Shown here: positions 22,808 through 60,951 of the stretch, piece by piece
Position numbering within the stretch: the stretch's first letter is position 1
Layout: each line of letters opens with the position of its first letter
Assembly (NCBI GenBank): GCA_963971535.1
Contig: OZ020585.1
Span: forward strand, 153,018,103 to 153,082,102
Origin: Notolepis coatsorum
Taxonomy: Eukaryota > Chordata > Actinopteri > Aulopiformes > Paralepididae
Reading direction: 5' to 3'
Length of the DNA: 64,000 bases
The notes under the pieces: model-generated
Database searches by the model: none
What the model was told of the DNA's origin: nothing
Seen by the model: the letters and a program-made list of their open reading frames with translations, nothing else
Position numbers and translations under genes: made by a program

Positions 22808-25594
22808 AAGGTACAAAAATGTACGAAGGAAGAGTTCATGCAGGTGGCTACTAGGTTTTCAATAGACCTCGATGCAGGCCAGAGAAAGGAGAGCTTGCAA
22901 GGTCAATTAATTGAGGAACTGGATAAGCAGGTTTTTTTTTGGTGTGGCTGCAGATAAATCTCTGGATGAGGGATATGTAGATGTCAGGGCGTATTAAAAG
23001 CTGCATGCATTGGAAGTGGAGAGCTATAACTTAAAATCGCGGGGGCGAGATGAGGAGCTTATGAAAGCGTGTGAGATGGCAGCTATTGAGGAAGCTAGTG
23101 AGGTGAGGAGAGCAGCTGCAGCCAGAGCTGAGCGTGAGGCTGGAGCAGCTGAACGTGAGGCCCAGGAAGCTGCTGATGTGGCACGTGAGGTTTGCATCCA
23201 GGCAGCGTATGGCCGGAAGATGGCGATACGTAACAATGGAGATGATGCTGGTGCTGTGCATGTGCAACGGGAGCCGGGTTTTGACATGGCTAGGCAGAAA
23301 AGTATGGTTCCGTTTTTTTTGGAAAGGGATGTTGATAGTTTTTTTTTTTATTGTTTGAAGACATAGCTGGCAGTTGCGGCTGGCCAGCAGATAAATGGAC
23401 TATCCTCATGCAGAGTGCTTTGCGCGGTAAGGCACATACCGTGTATGCGTCGATGTATCCTGATAAGGATTATAATTTGGTGAAACAGGCTATCCTTAAC
23501 ACTTTCAGTGCCCAGCAGGGGGCGCACATTTAGTGCTTGAATGCCCACCATCCACTTCAATGTTAGCATTAATATCGCCTAATCTATGTTTTAAATTATG
23601 GCTGTGTCTAATCTGCCCATCGCTTATCAATTACTCATTTCCAGTCAACATTGTCGAAGTGGATTGTTTTTTTATCGGTTCATTTCCGTTTGATAGCATT
23701 TTGAAAAGCCCTCGTTTTCAAGAAGAAAAAAAAAGATTCCATGATAATCGCCCTGTACTGTAATATTCTAGAACGTTGTCATTTTGCGGCCTATTTATGA
23801 ATTGTTTTCAAATAAATGCTAGATTATCGATAGTATATGTGCACGCTGGTGCCGCGAGCTGAACATCGATTCTCTCAGTTCCTGATGGCTCTTACAGTCA
23901 AACAGCCATATCAACATATAGGGGAAAAGCTTATATCTCCGTGAAAACAGGTCTGATTATCCTAAAACTGGTCAAATAGATTCCTTACCTGAGATCAGAT
24001 GGTATCCAAATGGATTATTCCAATTCCTGATCGCCATTCCAAAAATCGATCCTTTTATTGATCCAACGTGTATACTGTAAAACACATATTACACGCTGTG
24101 CTGAGGGTCCAGAATTAATCTGATCGGCTCCGGTTACATGCGTGAGAAGTAAAATGTGGATTCCGGGTTTTTTTTTCTCATCCATTTTCATTGAGTCCAA
24201 TCCAAAAGGGTGCATTGCCATCTGGGAGACATATGGGGCGCTTTTTTCACATCTGAGCGCCTGGCGGGGGAGGGTTACCAACGGTAGACTCGGTTGATGA
24301 AATATGAATTCAGATCGCTAATAAAAAAAATAAAACGAGGCTTCTCGTGATGGGCATTCAAAGTGTTAAGGCCTATGAGTTAGTCCCTGAGGCTTACCGC
24401 CAAAAATTTCGCAATTTAAGGAAACAAATCTCTCAGTCTTTTGTAGAGTTTGTGAGGGAAAAGCGGTTGCTTTTTGACCGGTGGTGTGCAGCGGAAAAGG
24501 TCACCACAGTGGAGGAGATTAGGGACCTAATCTTATTAGAAGAATTCAAGGTATATGGCGTCTCTGAGGATATTGCTATGTACTTAAATGAGAGGAAAGT
24601 CAGGACCTGTTCGGCAGCGGCGGTCCTGGCTGATGATTATGTTCTGACCCATAGGACATCTTTTGAGAGACAGCATTATCCTGTGTGTGATGGAGAGGGG
24701 AGGCAGAGATGGGGTACTACTAGGCCTACGGTCTCCAGTGCTGGGGGTAGTGGTAAGTTTAATGGGGCATGGGGAAGCGATGATACCCGGAAGTGCCGGA
24801 ATTGTGGGAGTGCAGGACATGTGATGGAGAATTGTTATCATTTGCACTCAGAAAAGTGCCCGTCTAACCCACCCAGGCCAGTGATGTTGATAAATACACC
24901 TGTACGTAACCCTGTTGTTCGGTCTCCACTAGATGGCAAAGGAGTGGATGACCTTTACACGCCTTTCAGGAGTAAAGGGTTTGTTTCATTGACAGAGGGA
25001 GGTCCTAAAGTACCAGTGACAATTCTCTGTGATACTGGCGCATCCAAATCTTTTGTTCACAGTAGTGTCCTGCCCTTTACGCACCACTCAGAGTTGGATG
25101 TAGGGGTTGTTATTGAGGCTTTTGGAATGCACACGATGAATGTGCCACTGCATAATGTCTTTCTTGATTGTGCCCTAGTGTCAGGACCGGTGGTGATCGG
25201 AGTGGCGGCTGGCAAACTCCCTAAGCAGGGGGTAACGTTGCTCTTGGGCAATGACTTGGCTGGAGGGAAAGTGCTAGTGAAACCGGAGGTGACATGTGTG
25301 CCAGATACTCAAGTGGCAGGTGATGGTCTGGCGAAGCAGTATCTCGAGGGCTTCCCAGCCTTTAAGGTGGCTGAGGCCTCAGACGAAGTGGAGGAGGAGA
25401 ATGAGACGGATGAGAGTGGGAAGGATGCTATGAGGAATGTTGCTACTTCATGTGGCACTGTTTCTGATATTTCATGTGGCACCATTCTGGTTGAAGAGGT
25501 ACAAGGTCAGAATTGGGCTGCCAGCCTTCCTATAGCTCTAATGTTCATGATGTCTCACTTGTCAGCAGTGATGATTAGGGTGACCATTAATTAA
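22802..25594 (+). pseudogene. gag-protease gene of the LTR element, broken
   Basis: The start ATG at 22802 gives MAKVQKCTKEEFMQVATRF. Two T-run frameshifts follow (about 22931-22940 and 23339-23350), separating a coiled-coil-like Ala/Glu/Arg-rich part (about 23010-23290). A TTAA-flanked MITE then splits the gene (23500-24365); because insert plus duplication is 870 bp, the frame on both sides is the same. Downstream come AYELVPEAYRQKFRNLRKQ (SCAN-like capsid fold), a CCHC knuckle (CRNCGSAGHVMENC, about 24793-24835), and a protease with the motif ILCDTGASKSFVHS (about 25021-25064). The frame ends at 25594 inside another insert. The product would have been the capsid precursor and aspartic protease. 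Confidence 0.82.
23500..24365. mobile_element. TTAA-flanked MITE (piggyBac-type), copy 2, in gag
   Basis: 866 bp bounded by TTAA at 23496-23499 and 24366-24369. TIRs: CACTTTCAGTGCCCA at the left, CACTTTGAATGCCCA in reverse complement at the right. The right half matches copy 1 (13253-13746). The left half (23515-23900) is additional. Open frames inside show no transposase. Removing the element and one TTAA would leave the gag reading frame in phase, which confirms the boundaries independently. Confidence 0.88.
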
Positions 25595-31840: not shown

Positions 31841-33300
31841 ATTATACTTTTGTAGAACACTCTGGAGATATTGATTTATGACACAATGTCATTTCGGGAC
31901 CGGTACCGGTCCCGTCGGGTGGAAGAGGTTGGACACACTAACAAAACAAAACGTTTCAAATAATGTAAGCGTTCGCCCGACCCTTTTTTTTAGACAGGCC
32001 AAATACAATAGCAGTCTGTTTTCCACCAAAAGTTGTTGCAGCCGTGAAAAAAAGCCAAAGTAGCCTACCTTGTGATATACTTGTGACAGGTCACCCAATG
32101 AATAAGGTTTCAAATAAAATTAATGAAGGAGGATACACATAGTGAATCAAATGTTCCCTCCTTTCCTTCATCATAATACCCATTCCATACCAATGAGGGA
32201 GGGTAATTGTTTGTTTGAGTGCACTTTCGAAGAGATGAGCCAGGTGAAACCTCCATTGAACTCAATCCACGACTCCCAGGAAAAAAACACTATGTGCTTG
32301 GATTGCTGTCTTTTCAATTGTTTGGCTCTTCTGTTGGAACACACCAGAGGCAGTTTGTTTGACTCAACTGAACTGGATAAGAGCCTCTGTGCATGCCGGT
32401 GAGATAATTCCTTATTGTTTTGTTTTCTTGTGGATTACAAATATCAGCTGATTAGCGGCCCCTCTAGCGACCCAAAAAAAGAAAAAAAAGCAACTAGCAA
32501 CAAATCGAGCAACTTTTTCTGGTGTTATTGGAGACTTTTAGAGACTCTGACGTGAAATCATGTATCGCTCTTACTCTTCTCAACGAGCAGCGGGTGCTGC
32601 CGTGGACCCCTCCCCTGTCCCAAAGCACTCACAGGTGGCCCAGTCCTCGCACAGAAGTCCATCTTAGCTGCAGTCAGAGCAGGAGATGAATCTCCTGAAG
32701 CCGCCACTGGTTGATCCCAACCTGGCTTAATGTCAGGGCGGGATGTAAATGTAAAATGTTCTTCAAATTTGTAGTTCTAAACATATTTAGGGTGTTTTAT
32801 TTTTTTTACTCACTTTGTCTCTCCCACAGTGTTATTCCTCTCTCCTACAGCATCCATTGCAGTTACATTCACATGGCCAATTACGCAAATTAGGCGATGA
32901 TGTCATTTAGCAGCCAATAGCTGCTTTCCTTACTGAGGAGTTGGCAACTGACTGATTGAATGAGCAGAATCAATGAAAGTGGGAACTAATAGAAGAAGAA
33001 CGACTATCATTCACTTGGATCACATAAGACACTAAAAGACACTAATTATTCTGAGACTTATTATCGTTATTTTACAGTATTTTTCCATTTTCTACTGATC
33101 TTTATTATTATTTATTACATTTTTTGCCTTGGGTGATGTGTGTTTGCCAGCAATATTAATGATTTGGAAAGTTAATTCAGGTGCCACTGAAATCACACTG
33201 ACCATTCCAGTCGTATTCTTGCTGTAATTGACTCTTGCACAGAGGGTTAAGAGTGATTGTTACACACCGAAAGACATTTTTGCGTGCAACTTGTACCACA
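31841..33300. other. Unassigned sequence
   Basis: No conserved frame, TIR pair or RNA gene recognised. 32450-32720 is a somewhat GC-rich patch with a CTAGCGACCC segment that looks like a repeat fragment. The plus-strand frames here (60-86 codons) have no domain. Confidence 0.4.
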
Positions 33301-33364
33301 TCCACAACCAGTGGCGGCTGGTGAATTCCTCCTCGGGGGGGCGGAATTAATTAGAATCCCACTC

Positions 33365-35204
33365 TATCTCTCCTTCTCTCACTTTCTCTCTCTCTCTTCT
33401 ATCCTTACCTCCATCTCGAAAGTCATGGAAAAAATTGTATACGAACAGGTCGAAAAATACCTTGCGGAAAAAAATCTAATCTACGAATTCCAATCTGGCT
33501 TCAGAACATCCCACTCCACTGACACATGCCTTCTCTATTTAAACGACCACATCAAACAAGAGGTGGACGCGGGCAAATACTGCGGCATGGTCATGCTGGA
33601 CCTACAAAAGGCCTTCGACACTGTCAATCACACCATTCTGATTGACAAGCTAAAAGCAATTGGTTTTGATAGTCTATCAGTGAGCTGGATGCAATCCTAC
33701 CTGGAGGGGAGAGAGCAGATGGTGGAGGTAAACGGTACCCTATCCCCCCCCCTCACAGTAAGCTGTGGTGTTCCACAAGGAAGCATACTAGGTCCGCTAC
33801 TGTTCCTAATTTATGCAAATCACATGTCGTCAGCTTGTGACTGCAACTTGTTCCTGTTTGCGGACGACTCAGCCCTGCTGGTCTCTGACAAGAACAAGTA
33901 ACAGGTTGAAAAAACCCTCAGCTCAGAACTAGGCAAAATCTGCATATGGCTCGCTGATAACAAACTATCATTACACATGGGCAAAACAGAGTCCATTCTC
34001 TTCGGTTCAAATAACAAACTCAGCAAGACCGACGGCTTCTCAGTTACAGTGGGTGACAATATTGTCACAAGGAAAGAAGATATTACCTACCTGGGTTCCA
34101 TCCTAGAGGCAAATCTTTCCTGTGACAAAATGGCATCCAATGTAATAAAAAAAGTCAACCAACGAACTCGATTCTTGTACCGGATCTCCCCACTGGTAAA
34201 CAAGAATACCCTGAAGACTCTAGCAGGAGCACTCATTCAAGGGTACTACGACTATGCTTGCACCTCATGGTACCAAAGCACCTCAAAGGCGCTAAAAACA
34301 AAATTACAAACATCTCAAAACAAACTGGTCAGACTACTGCTTGACCTTACTCCTAGAACCCACCTCACCCCTGCCCACTTTGACAACCTAGGATGGCTTA
34401 GAGTAGACGACAGAGTACAGCAACTTGCAATGGGCCTGGTCTACAAGATACACTACACGACCAAGGTACCCATGTACATGACAAAATACTTCCCAAAGGT
34501 CAGTGAATACCACGATCACAACACCAGAGGGAGCTCCACAAATCATGTTAAACCCAGATTCGGCTCAAACAAGGGACTAAACACGTTTCGCAATTATGCC
34601 ACATCAATGTGGAACGCCCTACCCAAAGCTGTAAAGGAATGTGAATCACTACCCACTTTCAAAAACACTCTCAAAAAACACCTAAGGGAGACTGCAACTC
34701 GAAACCGGCCCCTGTAAATGTCCGAACACAACCCCCTCCAATGTACAGTAAATTACCAAGTATGGTCTTGTCAATAATCCAATGTACAGTGTTGTTTGTA
34801 CAGTTGTACAGTGTCCCCCACCCACCCCTCCTACCCCACCCCCCCCCCCCCCCCCACCCAACCACCTCCAATGTACAGTCCCCCCCCACCCCCACCTACC
34901 CAATCCAATGTACAGTTTCTACGTCTAATGTATATACTCTTTTCTTTCTGGACTCTTTTTGTATCACAAACAGTACTGTAATTGCAAATCTGGTATGTCA
35001 TAAATGTATAGATGTAGCAGTACTGTCTATCTGTATGTCATGTATGTCACATATGTTACGATGAATTGAAAATGGGGGACCCTGATGTAAACAAGACAAA
35101 AGTCTTTCTCTGGTCTGCATCCCCTTAACAATTGTATGTATTGAGCTGTACTGTACTGTACCCATTCTGCAATCTGTTAATAAAGTTTTCAATCAATCAA
35201 ACTC
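33365..35204 (+). pseudogene. LINE-Y: Jockey-superfamily RT and 3' UTR
   Basis: 5'-truncated LINE. The RT frame includes SKVMEKIVYEQVEKYLAEKN, FQSGFRTSHSTDTCLL, VMLDLQKAFDTVNH, VSCGVPQGSILGPLLF and FLFADDSALLVSD (FADD catalytic box), followed by a TAA stop at 33899-33901. The same frame reopens and runs to 34717 with KTESILFGSNNKLS, ITYLGSILEANLSCD, and the C-terminal FRNYATSMWNALPKAVKECE. A single nonsense codon therefore splits an otherwise open 440-codon stretch. The endonuclease part is missing. The 3' UTR holds a C-run (34835-34855) and ends AATAAAGTTTTCAATCAATCAA. At least five other tails of this family are in the window. Clade (L2/CR1-like) is inferred. Confidence 0.85.
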
Positions 35205-44479: not shown

Positions 44480-45930
44480 AGATTTAAAGGCTTGCTGGCT
44501 TAGCGTCAGCGAAGCGTCGAGAAACGAAGAGGGACAAACAGGAGGAGTTTTCCTGGAGTTCTCCGCAAGGGATCCACCGATCCACCCAGTGCTAAGTACA
44601 CCATAATCCTATATTTCCCTCCCACTCTGCTATTTCTATACTTCCTCCCTGCCACTCTTGACAAGACAATGTGTCTCATACCTATATCCACAATCTGCTC
44701 CTCTAGAACAGATTCAACCCACCCACGGCAGTTTGCTAGCAACCCGGCTAATCTCTCCTACCCTCCTACAGCCACTAATACACCTGTCACAGTACGGGGA
44801 GGCTTATGGAATTGTCAATCAGCAGTCAAGAAAGCTGACTTCATTACTGCCTACGCCCATAGTCTAAATCTGCAGCTCCTGGCTCTAACTGAGACCTGGA
44901 TAACCCCCAATAACTCATCAACACCTGCAGCATTATCTACAAACTATAACTTCACTCACACACCTCGACCCTCCAGACGGGGTGGAGGCACTGGCCTCAT
45001 GACATCTCCTTCATGGGCTACAAACGTAACACCACTCTCCTCTCTCGAATAGCATGCAGTATCTGTCTCTAATCCTTTCAATCTCACCATTGTTACACTC
45101 TACCGCCCTCCAGGTCCACTCGATCACTTCACAGATGAGCTGGATATGCTTCTAAGCTCCTTACCGGAAGATGGTACCCCTCTCCTTCTATTGGGCGACT
45201 TCAACCTGCCTGACTCATCTCAGTCAGTCATAGTAGTCTCCCTCCTACAATCGTTTGACCTGACTCCCACTGCCATGCCTCCCACCCACAAAGCAGGCAA
45301 CTCCTTGGATCTCATATTTTCCCATAACTCCAGCATCATTAACACCACGGTAACTCCCCTACATGTATCTGACCATTCCTTCATATCCTTCTCACTAACT
45401 CTCATGCTTAACCGAAAGGTCTTCACCCCAACTCAAACAGTCTCACTCAGACGCAACCTGCCCTCCCTATCCCCCTCCACCCTCTCCTCTGACATACTAT
45501 CCGCTCTACCTTTGAGTGACACCTTCTCTGCTCTCTCCACAGAGATGGCAACCTCCACCCTCATTTCAGCCCTTGCAACCTCCTTCAACAAGCTCTGTCC
45601 CCTCGTTGAGAAACCTGCCCGCCGTTCCCCACCCAGTCCATGGCTGACAGATCCAGTAAGAGAACAAAGACAGGTCCTGAGAGCAGCTGAAAGGAAGTAT
45701 AGAAAGTCACGCCTCACTGCTGACATCGACACATATCAGAACCTCTTGTTAACATTCTCCAAAACCATCACTAATGCCAAAGCTTCTTTCTTCCACCATA
45801 GGATCAAGGCCTCTGCCAAGAATCTTCGCAAACTGCATGCTACCATGTCCTCCCTCCTCACTCCCCCCCACCCCCCCCCCCTCCCTCATCTTTCTCTGCC
45901 GAAGACTTTGCAATCTTCTTTGAGGAAAAA
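44480..45930 (+). pseudogene. L2 LINE ORF2, endonuclease part
   Basis: Apurinic-type endonuclease domain of an L2-clade LINE. Frame 44669-45052 reads VRGGLWNCQSAVKKADFI, LQLLALTETWI (catalytic Glu region) and GGGTGLM, then meets a TAG at 45050-45052. The same frame resumes with NPFNLTIVTLYRPPG, LLLLGDFNLPDSSQS (GDFN motif), GNSLDLIFSHNSS and VSDHSFISFSLTL (terminal SDH motif). After a linker the frame is lost in a C-rich run (about 45868-45892), where the RT frame takes over. One nonsense codon and one frameshift therefore break an otherwise complete protein. The product would nick target DNA for target-primed reverse transcription. Confidence 0.85.
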
Positions 45931-47598
45931 GTGGAGAACATCCGCAGCTCCTTCTCCCAATCCCCACCCATTCCAAATGCTGAATCGAGAACCTCATCCT
46001 TCACTCTGTCATCTTTCTCTCCCATTACAGAAGCAGAGACCCTGACACTGGTAACGTCAAACCATCCGACGACTTGCCAGCTTGACCAGCTACCCTCCCC
46101 ACTCCTCCAGACCATAGCACCAGACATCCTCCCATTCCTAACGGCAACCATCAACTCCTCACTCAACTCGGGGGTGGTCCCCACCTCCCTAAATCAAGTC
46201 AGAGTCACGCCGCTCATAAAAAAAACAACCCTGAACCCTACCGGCATAGGCAACTACCGTCCTGTCTCTCTTCTCTCCTTCCTTTCTAAAACACTTGAAC
46301 GTGCTGTATCCAACCAACTTACTGCTTATCTCTTACAGAATGACCTCCTAGACCCTAATCAGTCAGGCTTCAGGACTGGTCACTCCACAGAGACGGCCCT
46401 CATTGCGGTCACAGATGCACTTCACTTAGCAAAAGCGAAAGGCCTCTCCTCTGTCCTGATTCTCCTAGATCTATCTGCAGCCTTCGACACAGTCAACCAC
46501 CAGATCCTCCTTGCGGCCCTCGCAGGAATTGGAGTGGCTGGCTCTGCGCTGACATGGCTGTCATCATACCTCAATGACCACTCCTACCAAGTGTCATGGA
46601 GAGGGACCCTGTCGGCCACCCGCCCCCTGCGGACGGGTGTCCCCCAGGGCTCGGTTTTAGGACCCCTTCTCTTCTCCCTCTACACTAAATCACTGGGTAA
46701 CATTATCACGTCTCATGGCTTCTCCTACCATTGTTATGCCGACGATACTCAACTCTTCCTCTCCTTCCCTCCCTCAGATATCCACGTCTCTGAGCGGATC
46801 TCGGCCTGTCTGTCCGACATCTCCGCCTGGATGACGACCAACCACCTCAAACTGAACCTAAGCAAAACAGAATTGCTCCACCTGCCGGCCAAATCCTCCA
46901 CCCTAACCGACCTTTCAATCACAGTCGAGAATGCAGCTGTGACTGCGTCCATGACCACCAAGAACCTTGGTGTTGTCCTCGACGACCAGCTGAACTTCTC
47001 TGCTCACATCGCAGCGACGACCAGAACCTGCCGATTCCTCCTGAGCAACGTCAGAAGGATCCGCCCCTTCCTGACAAAAGAAGCCACCCAACTCCTCGTC
47101 CAATCAACAGTCATCTCCCGCCTCGACTACTGCAACGCACTGCTCACTGGCCTCCCGGCCACTGCCACTAAGCCTCTTCAACTCATTCAGAACGCAGCGG
47201 CCCGCCTGATCTCAAACCTACCGAAGTCGGCCTATGTCACCCCACTTCTTAGGGACCTGCACTGGCTCCCCATTGCTGCACGAATCCGCTTCAAGGCCCT
47301 CGACCTAGCATACCGTGCGGCAAAGGGAACCGCTCCCGCCTACCTCCGGTCAATGGTCTCTAACTACACACCCTCAAGACCCCTACGCTCTGCATCTTCT
47401 GGCCGCCTCAGACCTACTCCTATCCAAGCTCCGGGAGGGTCATCAAAGAGAAGTTGCGTATTCTCAGTCCTTGCCCCACAATGGTGGAATGAACTACCCA
47501 CCCCAGTTAGGACAGCCGAATCACGTCCAATCTTTCGCCGTCAACTAAAGACGCACTTCTTCAACCATTATCTGAATAAAAAAGAAAAATATATCTAA
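45931..47598 (+). pseudogene. L2 LINE ORF2, reverse transcriptase part
   Basis: 555 open codons covering the whole L2 RT and C-terminal region: FFEEKVENI-type start just upstream, GNYRPVSLLSFLSKTLERAV, QSGFRTGHSTETALIAV, LILLDLSAAFDTVNHQILL, RTGVPQGSVLGPLLFSLY, YHCYADDTQLFLSF (YADD box), KTELLHLPAKSS, NLGVVLDDQLNFSAHI, SRLDYCNALLTGLP, NAAARLISNLPK, LHWLPIAARIRFK, and FSVLAPQWWNELPTPVR near the end. It stops at TAA 47596-47598. The 3' UTR carries the L2 hallmark CGCTTTGGATAAAAGCGTC and a short ATGTAAA tail (to about 47795). The domain itself is unbroken, so the copy is fairly recent. Confidence 0.92.
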
Positions 47599-51593: not shown

Positions 51594-54290
51594 GTGAAAA
51601 AAGAGATTAACTCCATTTTAAGACAACAATCTGAATTTCAGATGCACAGAACAAGACAGCACTACTACTTTCACGGCTCCAGGCCTAGTCACCTACTAGC
51701 TATGAAGATACGTGCCAGTGAGCAATTTGCGGATATCCCTTCCATTAAGAACCAACAGGGGGAGGTAACCACCAACCCCAAAAAGATTAATGATACATTT
51801 CGCTCTTTTTATTCCAACCTGTACAAGTCAGAAGTGGTCTTTGATCATACCAAGCTGGAGGACTTTCTTAATCAAATCAACCTACCATAGATCTCGGAAG
51901 ATAAGCTGTTAGCTGCACCTATCACGCTAGTTGAACTTAGAGAGGCGATTGTGGATATGCAACGGGGCAAGGCTCCCGGATGGGATGGCATTCCACCGGA
52001 ACTCTATCTCGCATTCTGGGATGTACTCTGCCCCTTATTGCTCTCAATGATTTTACACTCAATCAAAGAGGGCAATTTTTCCAGAGATGTCAATATGGCG
52101 CTTATATCTGTTTTACTCAAGAAAGATACGGACCCCACCTAATCTGGCAGCTACAGGCCCCTAAGTCTCCTCTGAGCCGATCTTAAGCTATATGCCAAGG
52201 TTCTAGCCACCCGACTTCAAAAGCATATGACATCTCTAGTTCACCCTGATCAGACCAGCTTCATAAGAGGCCGCCTGGTTACTGACAACATCAGACGGTT
52301 ACTGCACGTGATTGATGCCAGCAAGGCTGTTGCAGTCCCTACAGCGGTCATGTCCTTGGACGCAATGAAGGCCTTTGACAGGTTGGAGTGGTCTTACTTG
52401 TGGGCAGTTCTTAGAAGGATGGGGTTGGGTGAGGGTTTCATTCATATGATCAAAGTTCTCTACACAAGGCCTTGGCCATGATCTTAACGGGGAAGTTCTG
52501 CACTCCACTCTTCTCTGTCTCACGCTCTTCTTGACAGGGTTGTCCTCTTAGTCCCGGACTTTTCGCCTTATCCCTCAAACCTCTAGCTCAATACATAAGA
52601 CAATCCCAAATGATATCTCCTGTTTCAATTCAGGGCACACATCACCATATCAGCTTATACGCAGATGATGTACTCCTGTTTATGCAGAATCCCTCCGTCT
52701 CTCTACCTCATCTTCTCAGCGTGATAGATGAGTTTCGCAGCCTGTCCGGCTTTAAGATCAACTGGCCAAAATCTGCTTTTCTTCAACTTAATGAGCCTGC
52801 GAAGGCTACCATCCTACCTGCAAACATACTTATGGTGGAGCACTTTAAATGTCTCGGGATTGAAATATTCCCCACTATTAGCCAGACGGTAAGGTATAAT
52901 TACTCGAGCTTGGGTGACAGGATTACGAATGACTTCAACAGATGGTACAAATAAAAAAATCCATTACAGGCCCGTGCGTCAATAATTAAAATGAATATTT
53001 TACCCAGAATTTACTTTATCAGCTCCATGCTTCCGTTACCTCCTCCTTTTGGTTACTGGCAGAAATTGCACTCTGCCTCATATAAATTCGTTTGGAACAA
53101 TAAACGCCCGTGCTTGAAGAGATCCACTGCCCAGAGGAGTAAACTCGATGGGGGCTTAGCATTTCCAGACTTTAAATATTATTTTCAAGCTTTCTCTCTG
53201 AGACCTCTGATCACTTGGTTTGACGCTCATGCAGTTGTGTCCTGGCAACCATTGGAGGAGAAGATGGTTTCCCCATATAGACTTCAGGATATTGTGTATA
53301 CCAACATATCAATTAAGCAATGCAAATTACAATTTGGCCCTCTTATCACACAACCCTAACCCTAACCCCATCCAGACTTGGCATGACACCCAGAAAGTGG
53401 GTACTAACCGCCATCAATGGCACACGCATTCCCCTCTATTTAATAACAATCTTCTCTTTATTGGACAACAACCTATTAGGTACCCTAGATGGGAAAAGAA
53501 AGGCATCCACACGTTGGGGGATATCTTCGATAACTCTGGTCTCCGCTCTTTCCAGGATCTATCCAACGGGTATGATCTTCCCGGAACCTCCTTTTTCTTT
53601 TCTTTACAAATAAGAGCAGCTCTGAAGGCTCATGGCGTTCCATGGGACGTTCCACTAGTGCATCACCGTTTTCACAAATTATTTTATGACAAAGAGACAT
53701 CGAGAGAATTCGTTTCTGACTTTTATCGCCATTTACTTATGTCCTCGTATAAAGACCTCCCCCTGGATACGATTTGGAGAAAGGATGTCCCGGAGTTGGA
53801 TGTAGATTTTGATTGGGATGCAGTCTGGGAAAATGTTCGGCTATCCTCACACAACCCAGATCACCAACAGATTCATCTAAATTTATTTCACAGGACTTAT
53901 TTGATTCCTAGACGATTGAATCTAATGGGTCTCAGACCTGACTCTCGATGTACCTTGTGTCCAAACGGTGCCACCGGAACATTTATGCATATGTACTGGG
54001 AATGTCCTCCTGTTGAGCTCTTTTGGGAAAATGTTACCTCTCAGCTCTCAGATATTTTCTCTTTGACCATACCTGTCTCTCCTTGTGTATTGTTATTGAA
54101 TGATGTCTCTCAATTACCGACCTCTACACATGTGAAAAGACTCATTTTAGCCGGCCTCACAGCCGCCAAAAAATGTATTGCCTCACGTTGGATTCACCCA
54201 GATAAACTCTGTCCGAAGGTATGGATTCTCACCTATCTTGATGTGATCGATCTGGAGATATCCACTGCACGTGTTATAGGGGTTAATTAA
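51594..54290 (+). pseudogene. L1 ORF2, RT and C-terminal region, decayed
   Basis: The endonuclease domain is absent. From 51594 the frames read RQHYYFHGSRPSHLLAMKI, FRSFYSNLYKSE, DMQRGKAPGWDGIPPELYLA, MALISVLLKKDTDPT (stop), [39 protein letters not shown] (first catalytic Asp), then a shift, HHISLYADDVLLFMQNPSV (YADD), FKINWPKSAFL, and INILPRIYF-type residues (KMNILPRIYFISSM). The last frame (53220-54290) has WKKGIHTLGDIFD-like residues and ends with the zinc-knuckle region CTLCPNGATGTFMHMYWECP. At least three stops (about 51888, 52139, 52952) and three frameshifts (near 52480, 52560-52610, 53360) break it. It is dead. The C-terminal order matches the L1/Tx1 group of fish. Confidence 0.88.
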
Positions 54291-55330: not shown

Positions 55331-55907
55331 TCAAAGCATCAAAAAACGATCCCCCCCCCCTTTCATGCATTCATGATGAAACATAATACCTATTATATAC
55401 ATTTGATTTGGAAATAGTAGCGTGTCTAGGTGAGAAACGGCAACGCTTTTAGTGAAATTCACGTTTTGCTGCATATCATCGTTTTCTGGGATTATTATTA
55501 TTATTATTATATTAGACAGGATCACTCTAAAACTATACTTATATTCACCACGGTATAACACGCAAATGTATTGATGAAAAAATTTATTCGTTGTCACATA
55601 TTGAACGATAGATAGTTGATGTCAAATGGGCCATAGTATTGTATCCATAGCTATAATATAGAATATGGGGCATTCTACCGAATTAGTTCAAAGTGCTGTC
55701 CCACAACAAGAAAAACTATTTAACATAACAATTAAGTATTCAGACATAGATATTTACTAAGAATATGTTATGATCTATTTAAACCCAAGGCATTAAATTA
55801 TATTGTGATGAGCTAAATATATACAAAATCATCATTTATAGGGTACTTTCTATTGGGAAGTAGCTGTCCCAAACCCTGACATGTAAATTTCAATGTATGT
55901 AAATAAC
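55331..55907. other. Unassigned AT-rich sequence
   Basis: Short C-run (55350-55361) and ATT repeat (55493-55513). No gene seen. Confidence 0.4.
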
Positions 55908-55912
55908 ACTTA
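55908..55912. repeat. Copia target duplication (ACTTA), left
   Basis: ACTTA directly before the 5' LTR and again at 60735-60739 after the 3' LTR. Confidence 0.9.
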
Positions 55913-56154
55913 TGTTGACTATAATGAGTGTGCTCTCCTGTCATCCATTCAGAGTGATTGACTGATTGACACCAGCTGAGTGATGGACTCATTAATACCA
56001 GCTGAGTGTGTGTATATAAGAGCGACCTTCACAAATAAAAATGTTGCTTCCTTGATACACGAATCCTGTCTCACAGCGTTTTATTCCTTCTCTCTATATA
56101 CTGTATAGTCCAGGTTATGATGTCTAGCCAATACGCAATATCCGACATTCAACA
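55913..56154 (+). mobile_element. Copia 5' LTR
   Basis: 242 bp with a TATA box (TATATAAG, 56013-56020) and a poly(A) signal (AATAAA, 56034-56039) close together, so the repeated R segment must be short. It contains a doubled motif ACCAGCTGAGTG (about 55970 and 55998). Confidence 0.95.
56013..56020 (+). promoter_or_regulatory. TATA box of the Copia LTR
   Basis: TATATAAG in the right place for Pol II initiation about 25-30 bp downstream, inside the LTR and identical in the 3' LTR. Confidence 0.75.
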
Positions 56155-56168
56155 GGTTATGGGCCCAG
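56155..56168 (+). promoter_or_regulatory. Primer binding site, initiator tRNA-Met half-molecule type
   Basis: GGTTATGGGCCCAG directly follows the 5' LTR. It is complementary to the anticodon stem-loop region of vertebrate initiator tRNA-Met (contains CCCATAAC). Priming from an internally cut tRNA-iMet is known in Copia elements. Confidence 0.85.
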
Positions 56169-56180
56169 AGCGCTAGAATC

Positions 56181-58862
56181 ATGACGACCAGACAATCGGA
56201 AGGGAATTCGCGTTGGTCTCGTCTAGCGTTTGACGGAGATGAACAAAAGTATGAACTGTGGGAGACTAAGTTCATGGGCCATCTCCGGCTACAGAGACTA
56301 AAGGACACTCTCGAAACAGATCTCCCTGACGAGGCGTCTGCTGTCGAGTTGAGAGAAGATGGTGAGAAAAACGCATTGATATACGCAGAGCTCATCCAGT
56401 TTCTGGACGATAAGAGTTTATCGCTGGTAATGCGAGAAGCGTCTGATGATGGACGGAAAGCCATCGGAATATTGCGCAATTATTATGCGGGTTCAGGGAA
56501 GCCAAGGATTATCAGTCTCTATATAGAGCTGACTACACTGCACAAGTCTAGCAGTGAAACGGTGACTGACTATGTAATTCGGGCAGAAAGGGCAATAACT
56601 GCACTGAGAAACGCAAATGAGATTTTGAGTGATAGTCTACTCGTGGCTATGGTATTAAAAGGACTGCCCGAGGCATTTAAACCCTTTGCGATACATGTCA
56701 CACAGAGTGATGAGACTATAGTGTTTTCTGAGTTTAAGACTAAGCTCAGGAGTTTTGAGGACACTGAGAAAATGCACGTTACCACATCGGATGACAATGT
56801 TATGCGAGCCCAAGCCCTGTCTGACCGGGGTGCACAGAATGCCCAGAGCGCGCACATTCAGAGCGCACAGCGTACAGACATTATATGCTACAGATGTGGC
56901 CAAAGTGGGCATATGAGAAGGACCTGTCGACGCAAGCTGTGGTGTCACCACTGTAAAAGCTCCACACATCAAGGGGCGACCTGCAGACGGAGACCGGAGC
57001 AGAACGATGCGCGAGGCATGTCTGTGCAAGTGAGTTGTCATGACAACAACACATATGCGTTTCTGACGAGGGAAGGCGATCCAGGACGCGGTGTTAAGAA
57101 GAAGGGCCTGATGGTGGACACCGGTGCGACTGCGCATATAATCACCGACCTGGCCAAGTTCAAGGTATTCGATGACGGATTCCAGGCCGAGTCTCACTGT
57201 ATGGAGTTGGCTGACGGCACGAGGAGCAACGGGGTCGCAGAGCGCAGAGGGGACGCGGAGGTGTGCTTGATTGACAGCAGAGGCAGGCGACTGACTACAA
57301 CACTGAGAGGGGCGCTGTACATCCCCTCATTCCCGCAGAACATCTTCTCTGTGAGAGCAGCCACCACTGGTACTGGAGCCACTGTGATCTTCAGACAAGG
57401 AGAAGACATCCTACAGCACAGAGACAGTACTGAATTTCACATCCATGAGCATAATAGGCTGTATTATTTGCCCATGGTGGATGACCAATGTGATCAGAGC
57501 AAGGGCTGTTTTGATATACAGACATGGCATGAAATTCTAGGACACTGCAATTATGCTGATGTTGAGAAACTCCAGCCTATTGTTGATGGTATGACTATTA
57601 AAGGGAAAATTGACAAGTCTAAACTGAACTGTGAAGTGTGCACTCAGGGAAAGTTTGTACAAAGCTTCAACAGGAAGCCTGATGTGAGAGCCAAAAAGGT
57701 TCTAGAGTTGGTGCACACAGACCTAGCAGGTCCTATTGACCCAGTGTCCATAGATGGGCATAGATTTACACTTTTGTTTACTGACGACTACTCAAATACT
57801 GTGTTTATCTATCATCTGAAGCATAAGAGTGATACTGTGCAAGCAACAGAGCAGTTCATAGCTGACACCGCCTCATATGGGAGGATCAGACGCATCCGGT
57901 CTGATAATGGTACAGAATACACTGGTAAAGAGTACCAAGGGCTACTGAGGAAAAATGGTATAAAGCATGAGACGTCATCACCATATTCGCCACATCAGAA
58001 TGGTACTGCAGAACGCCAGTTTAGGACTCTTTTCGACATGGCTAGATGCATGCTATTAGAGAGCAAGCTCCCAAAAGCATTATGGCCTTATGCATTACAG
58101 ACTGCAGCTCAAGTAAGGAATAGATGTTTTAACAATCGCACTAAACAGACACCTCACATGCTGCTGACAGGGAAACGTCCTAATATGTCTAGGATGCAGA
58201 AGTTTGGAACTCTGTGTTATGCCTACAGACAGCACAAGAAAAAGTTAGACCCTAGGAGTGAGAAGGGCTTCTTTGTCGGGCATGACAAGAAGAGCCCAGC
58301 TTACCTGGTTTTCTACCCCGACAGTGGAAAGGTGAGGAAGCACAGGCTGGTCAAATTTATGCCAAAAACAGTAGGTGAGCAGCAGACACAGACTGAGATA
58401 TCCATAGATGATGAGGATTTTGGTGGGCCACTTAGGGCTAGCACAAGCAAACAAATGGATGCTAGTCCAGAGACTGCTAAACAGCAGATTCCTGTGACCA
58501 GGCCAGAGAACAGCCAGGATCAGGCTAGAGAGGAACAGGAGGTCAAACAGGAGTCTCCACGCTATCCTTCTAGGGACCGGAAGAAGCCAGATTATTTTGG
58601 TGATAGTGTATATGAAGTAAGTCAACCCCAGACACAGGTTAATGTTGATTATTGTTACAAAATGTTGTGTAACATACCTTTAACTTACAGTGATGCAGTG
58701 AAGTCACCCGAATCAAAGGAATGGGTCAGTGCCATGGAGGATGAAATGCAATCACTGAGAGAGAACGGTACATTTACTTTGACCAACTTGCCACAGGGCA
58801 AAGTTGCAGTGGGGGGGTCGATGGGTGTATGCTATCAAGAAAAATGCAGATGGTACAGATAA
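56181..58862 (+). CDS. Copia gag-protease-integrase polyprotein (5' part of gag-pol)
   Basis: 893 codons from ATG 56181, 27 bp after the 5' LTR. Residues 1-230 form the capsid-type Gag (LAFDGDEQKYELWETKFMGH near the start). A CCHC knuckle CYRCGQSGHMRRTC lies at about 236-249. The protease motif LMVDTGATAHII is at about 310. The integrase has the HHCC zinc site (WHEILGHCNYADVEKL, CEVCTQGK, about 448-490) and the DDE core: VHTDLAGP (about D514), RIRSDNGTEYTG (about D575), HQNGTAERQFRT (about E611). The tail carries an acidic linker and the start of RT (YSDAVKSPESKEWVSAMEDE). After a G7 run (58811-58817) the frame shifts and stops. Upstream of that, no stop or shift is seen. Confidence 0.94.
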   Translation: MTTRQSEGNSRWSRLAFDGDEQKYELWETKFMGHLRLQRLKDTLETDLPDEASAVELREDGEKNALIYAELIQFLDDKSLSLVMREASDDGRKAIGILRNYYAGSGKPRIISLYIELTTLHKSSSETVTDYVIRAERAITALRNANEILSDSLLVAMVLKGLPEAFKPFAIHVTQSDETIVFSEFKTKLRSFEDTEKMHVTTSDDNVMRAQALSDRGAQNAQSAHIQSAQRTDIICYRCGQSGHMRRTCRRKLWCHHCKSSTHQGATCRRRPEQNDARGMSVQVSCHDNNTYAFLTREGDPGRGVKKKGLMVDTGATAHIITDLAKFKVFDDGFQAESHCMELADGTRSNGVAERRGDAEVCLIDSRGRRLTTTLRGALYIPSFPQNIFSVRAATTGTGATVIFRQGEDILQHRDSTEFHIHEHNRLYYLPMVDDQCDQSKGCFDIQTWHEILGHCNYADVEKLQPIVDGMTIKGKIDKSKLNCEVCTQGKFVQSFNRKPDVRAKKVLELVHTDLAGPIDPVSIDGHRFTLLFTDDYSNTVFIYHLKHKSDTVQATEQFIADTASYGRIRRIRSDNGTEYTGKEYQGLLRKNGIKHETSSPYSPHQNGTAERQFRTLFDMARCMLLESKLPKALWPYALQTAAQVRNRCFNNRTKQTPHMLLTGKRPNMSRMQKFGTLCYAYRQHKKKLDPRSEKGFFVGHDKKSPAYLVFYPDSGKVRKHRLVKFMPKTVGEQQTQTEISIDDEDFGGPLRASTSKQMDASPETAKQQIPVTRPENSQDQAREEQEVKQESPRYPSRDRKKPDYFGDSVYEVSQPQTQVNVDYCYKMLCNIPLTYSDAVKSPESKEWVSAMEDEMQSLRENGTFTLTNLPQGKVAVGGSMGVCYQEKCRWYR

Positions 58863-60228
58863 ATACAAGGCACAATATGTTGCTAAAGGCTACAGTCAGA
58901 AAAGGGGTGTTGACTATGGAGAGACTTTTTCTCCCACAGCCGACCTGACAAGTATCAGAGTATTGATGCAGAAAGCTGCACAAGAAAATTTGATTTTAAA
59001 TCAGATGGACGTTAAAACTGCCTACCTACATGCACCGATAGATTATGAGATATACATGGAACAGCCAGAGGGTTATGAACAGACATCTGGCACAGAGACA
59101 TTGGTGTGTAAACTAGAGAAGTCACTGTATGGTCTAAAACAGTCTGGCCGGAATTGGAACAACATGTTACATGACTATCTAATTGTGAATGAATTTGTGC
59201 AAAACCCTGCTGATCACTGTGTATATACAAGAGAAGCTGAGCATGAGAAGGTAATCATGATTATATGGGTTGATGATTTGGTTCTTGCAGCCAGTAATGA
59301 GAATGCAATGAAGGCTGTAAAAGAGATGCTCACAAAGAAATTTCAGATGAAGGATATGGGCAGATTGACACACTTCCTAGGAATCGACTTTGAACAGTGC
59401 GATGGATGTGTGACAATGTCACAGAAACAATGTGTAAAGAACATGCTAGAGAGGTTTGACATGCAGGACTGTAAACCCAGATCAACACCATGTGAGCGGG
59501 CACTCGATTACACTGAAGGGGCAGGAATAATGAACAATGTCACCCGGTACAGAGAGGTGGTCGGTAGCCTAATCTATCTTACTATGTGTACTAGGCCAGA
59601 TCTGTGTTTCATAGTGAGTAAACTGTCTCAGTATTTTAACAAACCAACTGAGGAACATTGGGCTACTGTCAAACATGTATTGAGGTTCTTAAAGGGCACC
59701 AGTGATAAAATGTTGTGTTACAAGAAGTGTAATTCTGATTTGAGGTTACAGGCTTACAGTGATGCGGACTGGGCAGCAGATGTCACAGACCGACGCAGCA
59801 CAACAGGGTACTGTGTTAGTCTACATGAGACTGGTCCATTGGTCTCATGGAAGACCAAAAAGCAACAGACGGTGGCATTGTCCACATGTGAAGCAGAGTA
59901 CATGGCACTAGCTGCAACCACCCAAGAGTGTTTACACCTGGTACAACTGCTGACACATATGGATGCATGTAAGTATGCACCACCCATTGTCCATGAGGAC
60001 AATCAGGGAACCATAGCATTAGCTAAGAACCCAGTCCGCAGACAAAGATGCAAACACATAGACATAAAGTACCATTTTATCAGATCTACAGTACTAAATG
60101 GACAGATCTGTTTGCGATACTGTCCCACAGATCAAATGGTGGCTGATGTATTTACCAAACCAGCAACTAAGGACAAACTAAATAGGTTCTCAAAGGTTAT
60201 GTTTGGGAGAGAAACCACATCAGTGTGA
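58804..60228 (+). CDS. Copia reverse transcriptase-RNase H (3' part of gag-pol)
   Basis: 474 codons in the +1-shifted frame; it has no start of its own and would normally be joined to the upstream frame. RT motifs: KAQYVAKGYSQKRGVDYGET, FSPTADLTSIRVLM, QMDVKTAYLHAPIDYEIYM (first Asp), SLYGLKQSGRNWN, MIIWVDDLVLAAS (VDD box, here WVDD), and MKDMGRLTHFLGIDFE. Linker: VGSLIYLTMCTRPDLCFIVS. RNase H: AYSDADWAADVTDRRSTTGY, LSTCEAEYMALAATTQE (catalytic Glu), EDNQGTIALAKNP (Asp) and KHIDIKYHFIR (His). It ends at TGA 60226-60228. All catalytic residues are present. The single-base difference in the G-run could be a real mutation or an assembly error. Confidence 0.94.
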   Translation: MQWGGRWVYAIKKNADGTDKYKAQYVAKGYSQKRGVDYGETFSPTADLTSIRVLMQKAAQENLILNQMDVKTAYLHAPIDYEIYMEQPEGYEQTSGTETLVCKLEKSLYGLKQSGRNWNNMLHDYLIVNEFVQNPADHCVYTREAEHEKVIMIIWVDDLVLAASNENAMKAVKEMLTKKFQMKDMGRLTHFLGIDFEQCDGCVTMSQKQCVKNMLERFDMQDCKPRSTPCERALDYTEGAGIMNNVTRYREVVGSLIYLTMCTRPDLCFIVSKLSQYFNKPTEEHWATVKHVLRFLKGTSDKMLCYKKCNSDLRLQAYSDADWAADVTDRRSTTGYCVSLHETGPLVSWKTKKQQTVALSTCEAEYMALAATTQECLHLVQLLTHMDACKYAPPIVHEDNQGTIALAKNPVRRQRCKHIDIKYHFIRSTVLNGQICLRYCPTDQMVADVFTKPATKDKLNRFSKVMFGRETTSV

Positions 60229-60492
60229 GCAGTGACCAAGTGGTCACATTTTTTGTTTTTCTTGTTTATTTCAAAAGTTATAAAACAGTGCCAGTGAAAA
60301 AACGGACTGTGTAAATAATGAAATCTAATGATTTATGTTCTTGTTTCACTCAGGAGAGGAACCATATCAATGACAGCCTTCGTTTGTTTAATGGAATGTA
60401 AAAGTGTTACAATAACTGATTGTTATTAAATTGTTTTTGTTATTATTTTTCCTTCTCCAGTTTAGATAAGTCAGTAGGATAGCAAGTGGGGG
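60229..60492 (+). other. Copia 3' untranslated region with polypurine tract
   Basis: Non-coding; ends in AGGATAGCAAGTGGGGG at 60476-60492, the purine tract directly before the 3' LTR that primes plus-strand synthesis. Confidence 0.85.
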
Positions 60493-60734
60493 TGTTGACT
60501 ATAATGAGTGTGCTCTCCCGTCATCCATTCAGAGTGATTGACTGATTGACACCAGCTGAGTGATGGACTCATTAATACCAGCTGAGTGTGTGTATATAAG
60601 AGCGACCTTCACAAATAAAAATGTTGCTTCCTTGATACACGAATCCTGTCTCACAGCGTTTTATTCCTTCTCTCTATATACTGTATAGTCCAGGTTATGA
60701 TGTCTAGCCAATACGCAATATCCGACATTCAACA
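60493..60734 (+). mobile_element. Copia 3' LTR
   Basis: Identical to the 5' LTR except one T-to-C difference (CTCCTGTC against CTCCCGTC). Followed by ACTTA. Confidence 0.95.
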
Positions 60735-60951
60735 ACTTACATTTTTTTTTAGATTTAGTTCAATGGTGTAATTTCCAGTGTTGGGCAAGTTACTTTTAAA
60801 AAGTAACTAGTTACAGTTACTAGTTACTTCTTCCAAAAAGTTACTAAATTACTTACTCAGTTACAAATTATAAAAGTAACTAGTTACTTCAGAAAGTAAC
60901 TATTGCATTACTTTCAAGATGTATTTAAATTTTTTTTACATAAACAACATA

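Follow-up and report, generated by a model that had tools for sequence, protein, structure and literature searches.

An apparently recent Ty1/Copia insertion, non-autonomous as assembled, in a ray-finned fish genome with many other Copia candidates

A Copia LTR retrotransposon lies at positions 55913-60734 of the window, by which we mean the whole stretch of 64 kb that was analysed. The locus raises the question of how recently this copy was inserted, whether it could still encode its own enzymes, and what it indicates about the Copia elements of its host. The features on which the answers depend, together with their sources, are the following.

55663..55912, forward strand: host repeat, left part (genome match and empty sites)
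55908..55912, forward strand: target site duplication ACTTA, left copy (sequence and empty sites)
55913..56154, forward strand: 5' LTR, TG...CA (comparison of the LTR pair)
56013-56020, forward strand: TATA-like box in the 5' LTR (motif scan)
56034-56039, forward strand: AATAAA in the 5' LTR (motif scan)
56155..56168, forward strand: primer binding site (PBS), complementary to nt 26-39 of the initiator tRNA-Met gene
56181..58862, forward strand: frame from gag to the start of the reverse transcriptase (RT), with a stop after the frame change
56364-56774, forward strand: Gag (Pfam)
56886-56927 and 56943-56984, forward strand: zinc knuckles (motif scan)
57114-57128, forward strand: protease DTGA (motif scan)
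57705-57992, forward strand: integrase, with motifs from 57714, 57900 and 57999 (Pfam and motif scan)
58783..60228, forward strand: open frame from RT to RNase H (ORF reading)
58811..58817, forward strand: G-run, point of the frame change in pol (ORF reading)
58813-59496, forward strand: RT, with VDD at 59266-59280 (Pfam and motif scan)
59758-60078, forward strand: RNase H motifs (motif scan)
60484..60492, forward strand: polypurine tract adjoining the 3' LTR (read from the sequence)
60493..60734, forward strand: 3' LTR, with one difference from the 5' LTR
60735..60739, forward strand: target site duplication ACTTA, right copy (sequence and empty sites)
60735..60775, forward strand: host repeat, right part (empty-site comparison)

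Anatomy of the element and its target site

The layout of the element is that of the Ty1/Copia type, with LTRs at both ends, a PBS directly after the 5' LTR (GGTTATGGGCCCAG) and a polypurine tract before the 3' LTR (AAGTGGGGG); LTRs, PBS and polypurine tract, together with a length of 4 to over 9 kb, define the Pseudoviridae (PMC8515867). The Pfam matches above cut-off are the Copia gag (PF14223, 6e-11), the integrase core (PF00665), the integrase SH3 domain (PF25597) and the Copia RT (PF07727, 2.4e-68), and their order places Copia gag first, then the integrase core and the Copia RT, with the integrase upstream of the RT. Two other families fell just under their cut-offs, namely the zinc knuckle (PF00098, 20.2 vs 20.8 bits) and gag_pre-integrs (PF13976, 25.9 vs 28.4), and neither protease nor RNase H had a Pfam match in the element. 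The motif scan located the protease DTGA, the integrase D/D/E, the RT VDD and the RNase H motifs, which we take to mark these enzymes here, and the pattern for the integrase zinc site had no match in the element. In the PDB, the integrase piece comes closest to 7z0h chain W (E 1.9e-15). This chain bears the name Integrase, and we take it to be the integrase of yeast Ty1; the piece from RT to RNase H had no PDB match.

The two LTRs of 242 bp each differ by a single mismatch (55939 T vs 60519 C) and the 5-bp duplication ACTTA is perfect, with both copies in place, exactly as a preliminary description of this DNA had reported. The target lies within an interspersed host repeat of about 290 bp, which occurs at 93-100% in at least 39 other genomic places (40 places were scored of 1792 candidates, and six of the 39 others were fetched). 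In all six fetched siblings the repeat continues across this site and has ACTTA once; when the two flanks of the element are joined, they align with these empty siblings over 186-187 bases at 96-99%. Given that the siblings are uninterrupted and hold a single ACTTA, the element was inserted into an older repeat and duplicated five bases of it, and the insertion is genuine; the search for empty sites proposed earlier was answered by paralogous ones, in six of the six sampled. Duplications of 5 bp also flank 10 of the 11 other two-LTR loci that were compared, three of these ten being one duplicated insertion, and L035 is the sole one of the 11 other LTR pairs without a target duplication.

The divided Gag-Pol frame

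The preliminary description had held gag, protease, integrase, RT and RNase H to be intact, and this stands as far as the presence of the motifs is concerned. No single Gag-Pol can be read, however, since the coding region is divided into two frames, 56181-58862 and 58783-60228, with the switch at the G-run 58811-58817 at the beginning of the RT, and both frames are otherwise open over the expected domains. We rejected, because of this split, the idea that the intact motifs amount to a functional Gag-Pol, and by the measure of a continuous Gag-Pol the window copy is not autonomous as assembled, although the split could come from an assembly error.

In a pattern count across the whole genome, the G-run length of the window copy is common to four of 60 copies and differs in the other 56; the count depended on exact flanks, which makes 60 a lower bound on the number of copies. 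Frames were inspected in 10 two-LTR loci, the window copy included, and three have an uninterrupted Gag-Pol frame of 1354-1355 aa. These three lie on one contig and are one duplicated insertion, because they share their target duplication and adjoining flank. The family therefore does include uninterrupted copies, to which the window copy as assembled does not belong.

The run length found in four of the 60 copies would reflect either repeated slippage, or copies mobilised in trans, or a recurrent assembly error. That the element is truly intact, and that its frame change was introduced by sequencing or assembly, is doubtful, if far from negligible. The break does fall in a homopolymer, at a length absent from 56 of the copies, and L062, a locus with the same run length that was viewed whole, is 0.88% divergent from the window copy, much like 11 other rows (0.79-1.08%), which fits recurrent slippage or error; on the other hand, slippage in G-runs is a real mutation process too, and both frames remain open across the domains that are expected of them. 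The coincidence of the break with a G-run might also be read as a programmed frameshift for the making of RT, a reading that is hardly credible, given that only four of the 60 copies have this length and that frames of 1354-1355 aa run uninterrupted elsewhere in the family. The preferred reading thus continues to be that of a copy which, as assembled, would depend on others for its enzymes. L062 was also considered as a sister of the window copy and was rejected, with its divergence of 0.88% and flank matches of just 12-15 bases.

Age, decay and relatives of the window copy

The divergence of the LTR pair is 0.41% (Poisson 95% 0.01-2.3%), which gives a point age of 0.26-2.1 million years at assumed rates of 1e-9 to 8e-9 substitutions per site per year, and an upper bound of 11.5 million years at the slowest of these. 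The earlier proposal of a recent insertion is supported. Within its family the window copy does not stand out as young, because the 11 other LTR pairs compared are all about as alike, with 0-1 substitutions, three of them also differing by one gap (the comparison covered the window copy and nine loci, then L036/L037 and L062, with the rearranged L049 and further pairs from the genome search left out). L049 is a family copy with its 3' part inverted and three LTRs in the stretch.

A genome search for further copies, as had been suggested, returned 60 exact matches for a spot in the RT and 109 for a 24-mer of the window LTR. The preliminary description had named heavy decay of all other copies as an outcome that would speak against recent activity, and the family does not present it: 17 compared rows, three of which represent one duplicated insertion, diverge from the window copy by 0.79-2.03% (12 by 0.79-1.08%, one by 1.27% and four by 1.56-2.03%), and none of the 11 other LTR pairs exceeds one substitution. 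Target duplications and the bases next to them are identical between several loci of the family, which hold solo LTRs and one full element (L013, L014 and L018; L029 and L030; L031-L033), and for this reason the copy counts of the family include duplicated segments.

When the window copy is set against 15 others, 15 of 4338 sites carry a substitution private to it (0.35%). Nine of these 15 are CpG transitions, in comparison with 37 of 231 private changes in the 15 others (Fisher p 2.8e-4), and the single LTR mismatch is itself a CpG change, at a CpG that is kept in 29 of 30 LTR loci, the 3' LTR of the window copy included. The rate of private changes outside CpG is the lowest of the 16 copies, at 1.38 per kb. 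This pattern suggests that the window copy has been methylated since its insertion and has been decaying through deamination at CpG sites. G-to-A hypermutation of the copy was considered, with 10 of its 15 private changes being G>A, and was rejected, since the skew of G>A vs C>T is not significant (p 0.08 in the window copy and p 1.0 over all copies) and CpG explains most of the changes. Purifying selection among the copies reached significance neither in private changes (68 of 226 synonymous vs 58.2 expected, p 0.08) nor in shared ones (17 of 48 vs 12.4, p 0.09). These counts of private changes, selection and CpG omit L032 and L033, two of the three duplicated loci, as well as the fragments L038, L039 and L041, which are below the length limit; L036 and L037 were counted as one, and the partial copies are L043, L045, L046, L047 and L050.

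The likeness of the two LTRs could be due to gene conversion instead of youth, a process that is possible in principle between short LTR pairs such as these. We hold this to be very unlikely, given that the private changes of the internal region, at 0.35%, agree with the 0.41% of the LTRs, that the 11 other pairs are about as similar, and that the target duplication and the empty sites are clean. Even less probability attaches to the window copy being a segmental duplicate of another insertion. Such duplication occurs in the family, as the three loci that share a target duplication and adjoining flank on one contig attest, but the target of the window copy lies in a repeat that is empty in all six sampled siblings, the left flank from 55560 has no full match elsewhere among the 40 places scored of 1792 candidates, and L062 has no flank in common with it beyond the short matches given above. 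In all, the locus very probably represents a recent insertion from a small Ty1/Copia (Pseudoviridae) family, in a copy that is non-autonomous as assembled.

Primer site and the other Copia families of the genome

The 14-nt PBS is the complement of part of an initiator tRNA-Met gene in the same genome; the segment in question is nt 26-39 when numbering begins at L083:1477, and nt 27-40 with the start that ARAGORN gives. With up to three mismatches allowed, an 18-mer taken from the start of the PBS has a single hit in the window, and no hit in any of 100 shuffles. Since the complementarity is to the middle of the initiator tRNA-Met, the 5' half of this tRNA is the most likely primer of reverse transcription. 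The 21-base pattern of the initiator tRNA-Met has 380 genomic occurrences, and from C30:17129165 onwards there is a long tandem array of this tRNA sequence, with a spacing often near 402 bases.

In the mechanism that we propose, the parent RNA would have been transcribed by Pol II from the LTR and reverse transcribed in a particle with half-tRNA-Met as the primer, and its product would have been integrated by the Copia integrase; the steps of priming, packaging and integration are here deduced from the sequence. If the parent already carried the frame change, the enzymes would have come from an uninterrupted copy. After the insertion, the copy would have decayed by deamination at CpG, the methylation being read from the substitution pattern.

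The window element is a further member of Ty1/Copia, a kind that is already known. The hemivirus type (Drosophila copia; ICTV genus Hemivirus) has the same domain order and a PBS on an internal segment of the initiator tRNA-Met, and the likeness rests on these two traits, the host of the window element being, in contrast, a ray-finned fish. The primer of Drosophila copia is a half-tRNA according to the available part of one source (PMC5371799), and in the ICTV scheme hemiviruses are distinguished from pseudoviruses by using a short segment of the tRNA (PMC8515867). Ty1 of yeast, which belongs to another kingdom, is a remote relative, with a bipartite PBS in the same partial source (PMC5371799).

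Copia elements in fish are likewise represented by the Hydra clade (zebrafish Hydra1-2 and CoNotoB of Antarctic fish, in the portions available of PMC5941688 and PMC2774666), which may be, of the named clades in fish, the one closest to one of the two RT groups in the comparison made here. The GalEa clade (Zeco1, Olco1, GalEa1 and CoRex), widespread in teleosts, includes elements of similar build, such as CoRex1 (4949 bp) and CoRex2 (4875 bp), with short LTRs, as far as the accessible part of the source describes them (PMC3587641). In that same part, the PBS of GalEa1 and CoRex1-3 pairs with the 3' end of tRNA-Met (PMC3587641), whereas that of the window element is of the internal type and does not pair with this end, and the LTR ends given there for CoRex1 and CoRex2 also differ from those of the window element. 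GalEa is placed on the Pseudovirus branch, with the hemiviruses on the other, in the excerpt available of PMC2774666.

Metazoan Copia elements are described in parts of the literature as scarce and limited to a few clades, GalEa and Hydra foremost (PMC3587641, PMC6238403), and 4, 1, 3 and no Copia families are given for four teleost genomes in the available portion of another study (PMC4746887). The word 'copia' is absent from the main text, in the portions available, of a fish survey (Shao 2019, PMC6817897) and of a bichir-genome paper (PMC11785729), and no paper on Copia abundance in polypterids was found among the open-access papers listed.

The preliminary description had likewise called Copia rare in vertebrates, and this seems not to hold in the present genome. 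A 17-mer that joins the LTR end (ACA) to the half-tRNA PBS occurs 2995 times in the 3.42-Gb genome and its reversed control not once, with Copia behind the junction confirmed in the family of the window element and in three others, each through a single copy. For a PBS matching the 3' end of tRNA-Met, the junction count is 63, a figure that required a longer PBS and is not strictly comparable with the 2995. A first look with the Copia RT profile gave 4063 candidates, and all 150 that were scored pass the cut-off. Among 10 sampled RT domains, six are 58-70% identical to that of the window element and four are at 42-44%, and the three other families examined, by one copy each, all carry the identical 14-base PBS.

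Within the first of these families (24-mer count 62; L056, L063-L072), 11 RT pieces of 729 bp differ by 0-2 bases, nine of them being identical; in the second (L057, L080-L082), all four RT pieces are identical over 732 bp; and in the third, eight pieces differ by 0-7. These 23 pieces, out of the 150 scored, were chosen because their profile scores were equal or nearly so, a choice that biases them towards likeness, and the numbers of near-identical pieces may be raised by duplicated contigs. With these bounds, the near-identical pieces point to very recent movement or duplication, and the first two families look younger than that of the window element, from which current activity is less well argued than from those two. 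We lean, with some reserve, towards the view that half-tRNA-primed Copia is undergoing a large expansion in this ray-finned host, with thousands of copies, at least two deep RT groups and some families that were very recently mobile. If this is true, it would be an expansion of hemivirus type in a lineage of vertebrates for which Copia is regarded as scarce, and the genome would be suited to asking what keeps Copia scarce in most vertebrates but perhaps not in this one. The window copy alone is a typical young and slightly decayed insertion, of value as a pointer to an apparently Copia-rich genome, and the surrounding abundance, although only sampled, is of more interest than the element itself.

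The genome contains an intronless rhodopsin, with 345 of 348 residues in a single frame, as well as a split paralogue. We take this combination to be a mark of ray-finned fish, and it supports the fish origin that the preliminary description assumed for the DNA. Other mobile elements are also present in the window. The 428-aa open frame at 24308-25594 combines a SCAN domain (5.2e-14) with a zinc knuckle and a protease-like motif, and is probably the gag-protease part of a Gmr1-kind Gypsy element, the kind in which the SCAN domain presumably originated. Frames for a LINE endonuclease and reverse transcriptase lie at 44504-47598 (RVT_1, 7.6e-39), a further RVT_1 lies at 33257-33901, and a zf-RVT match below the cut-off is found at 53211-54290.
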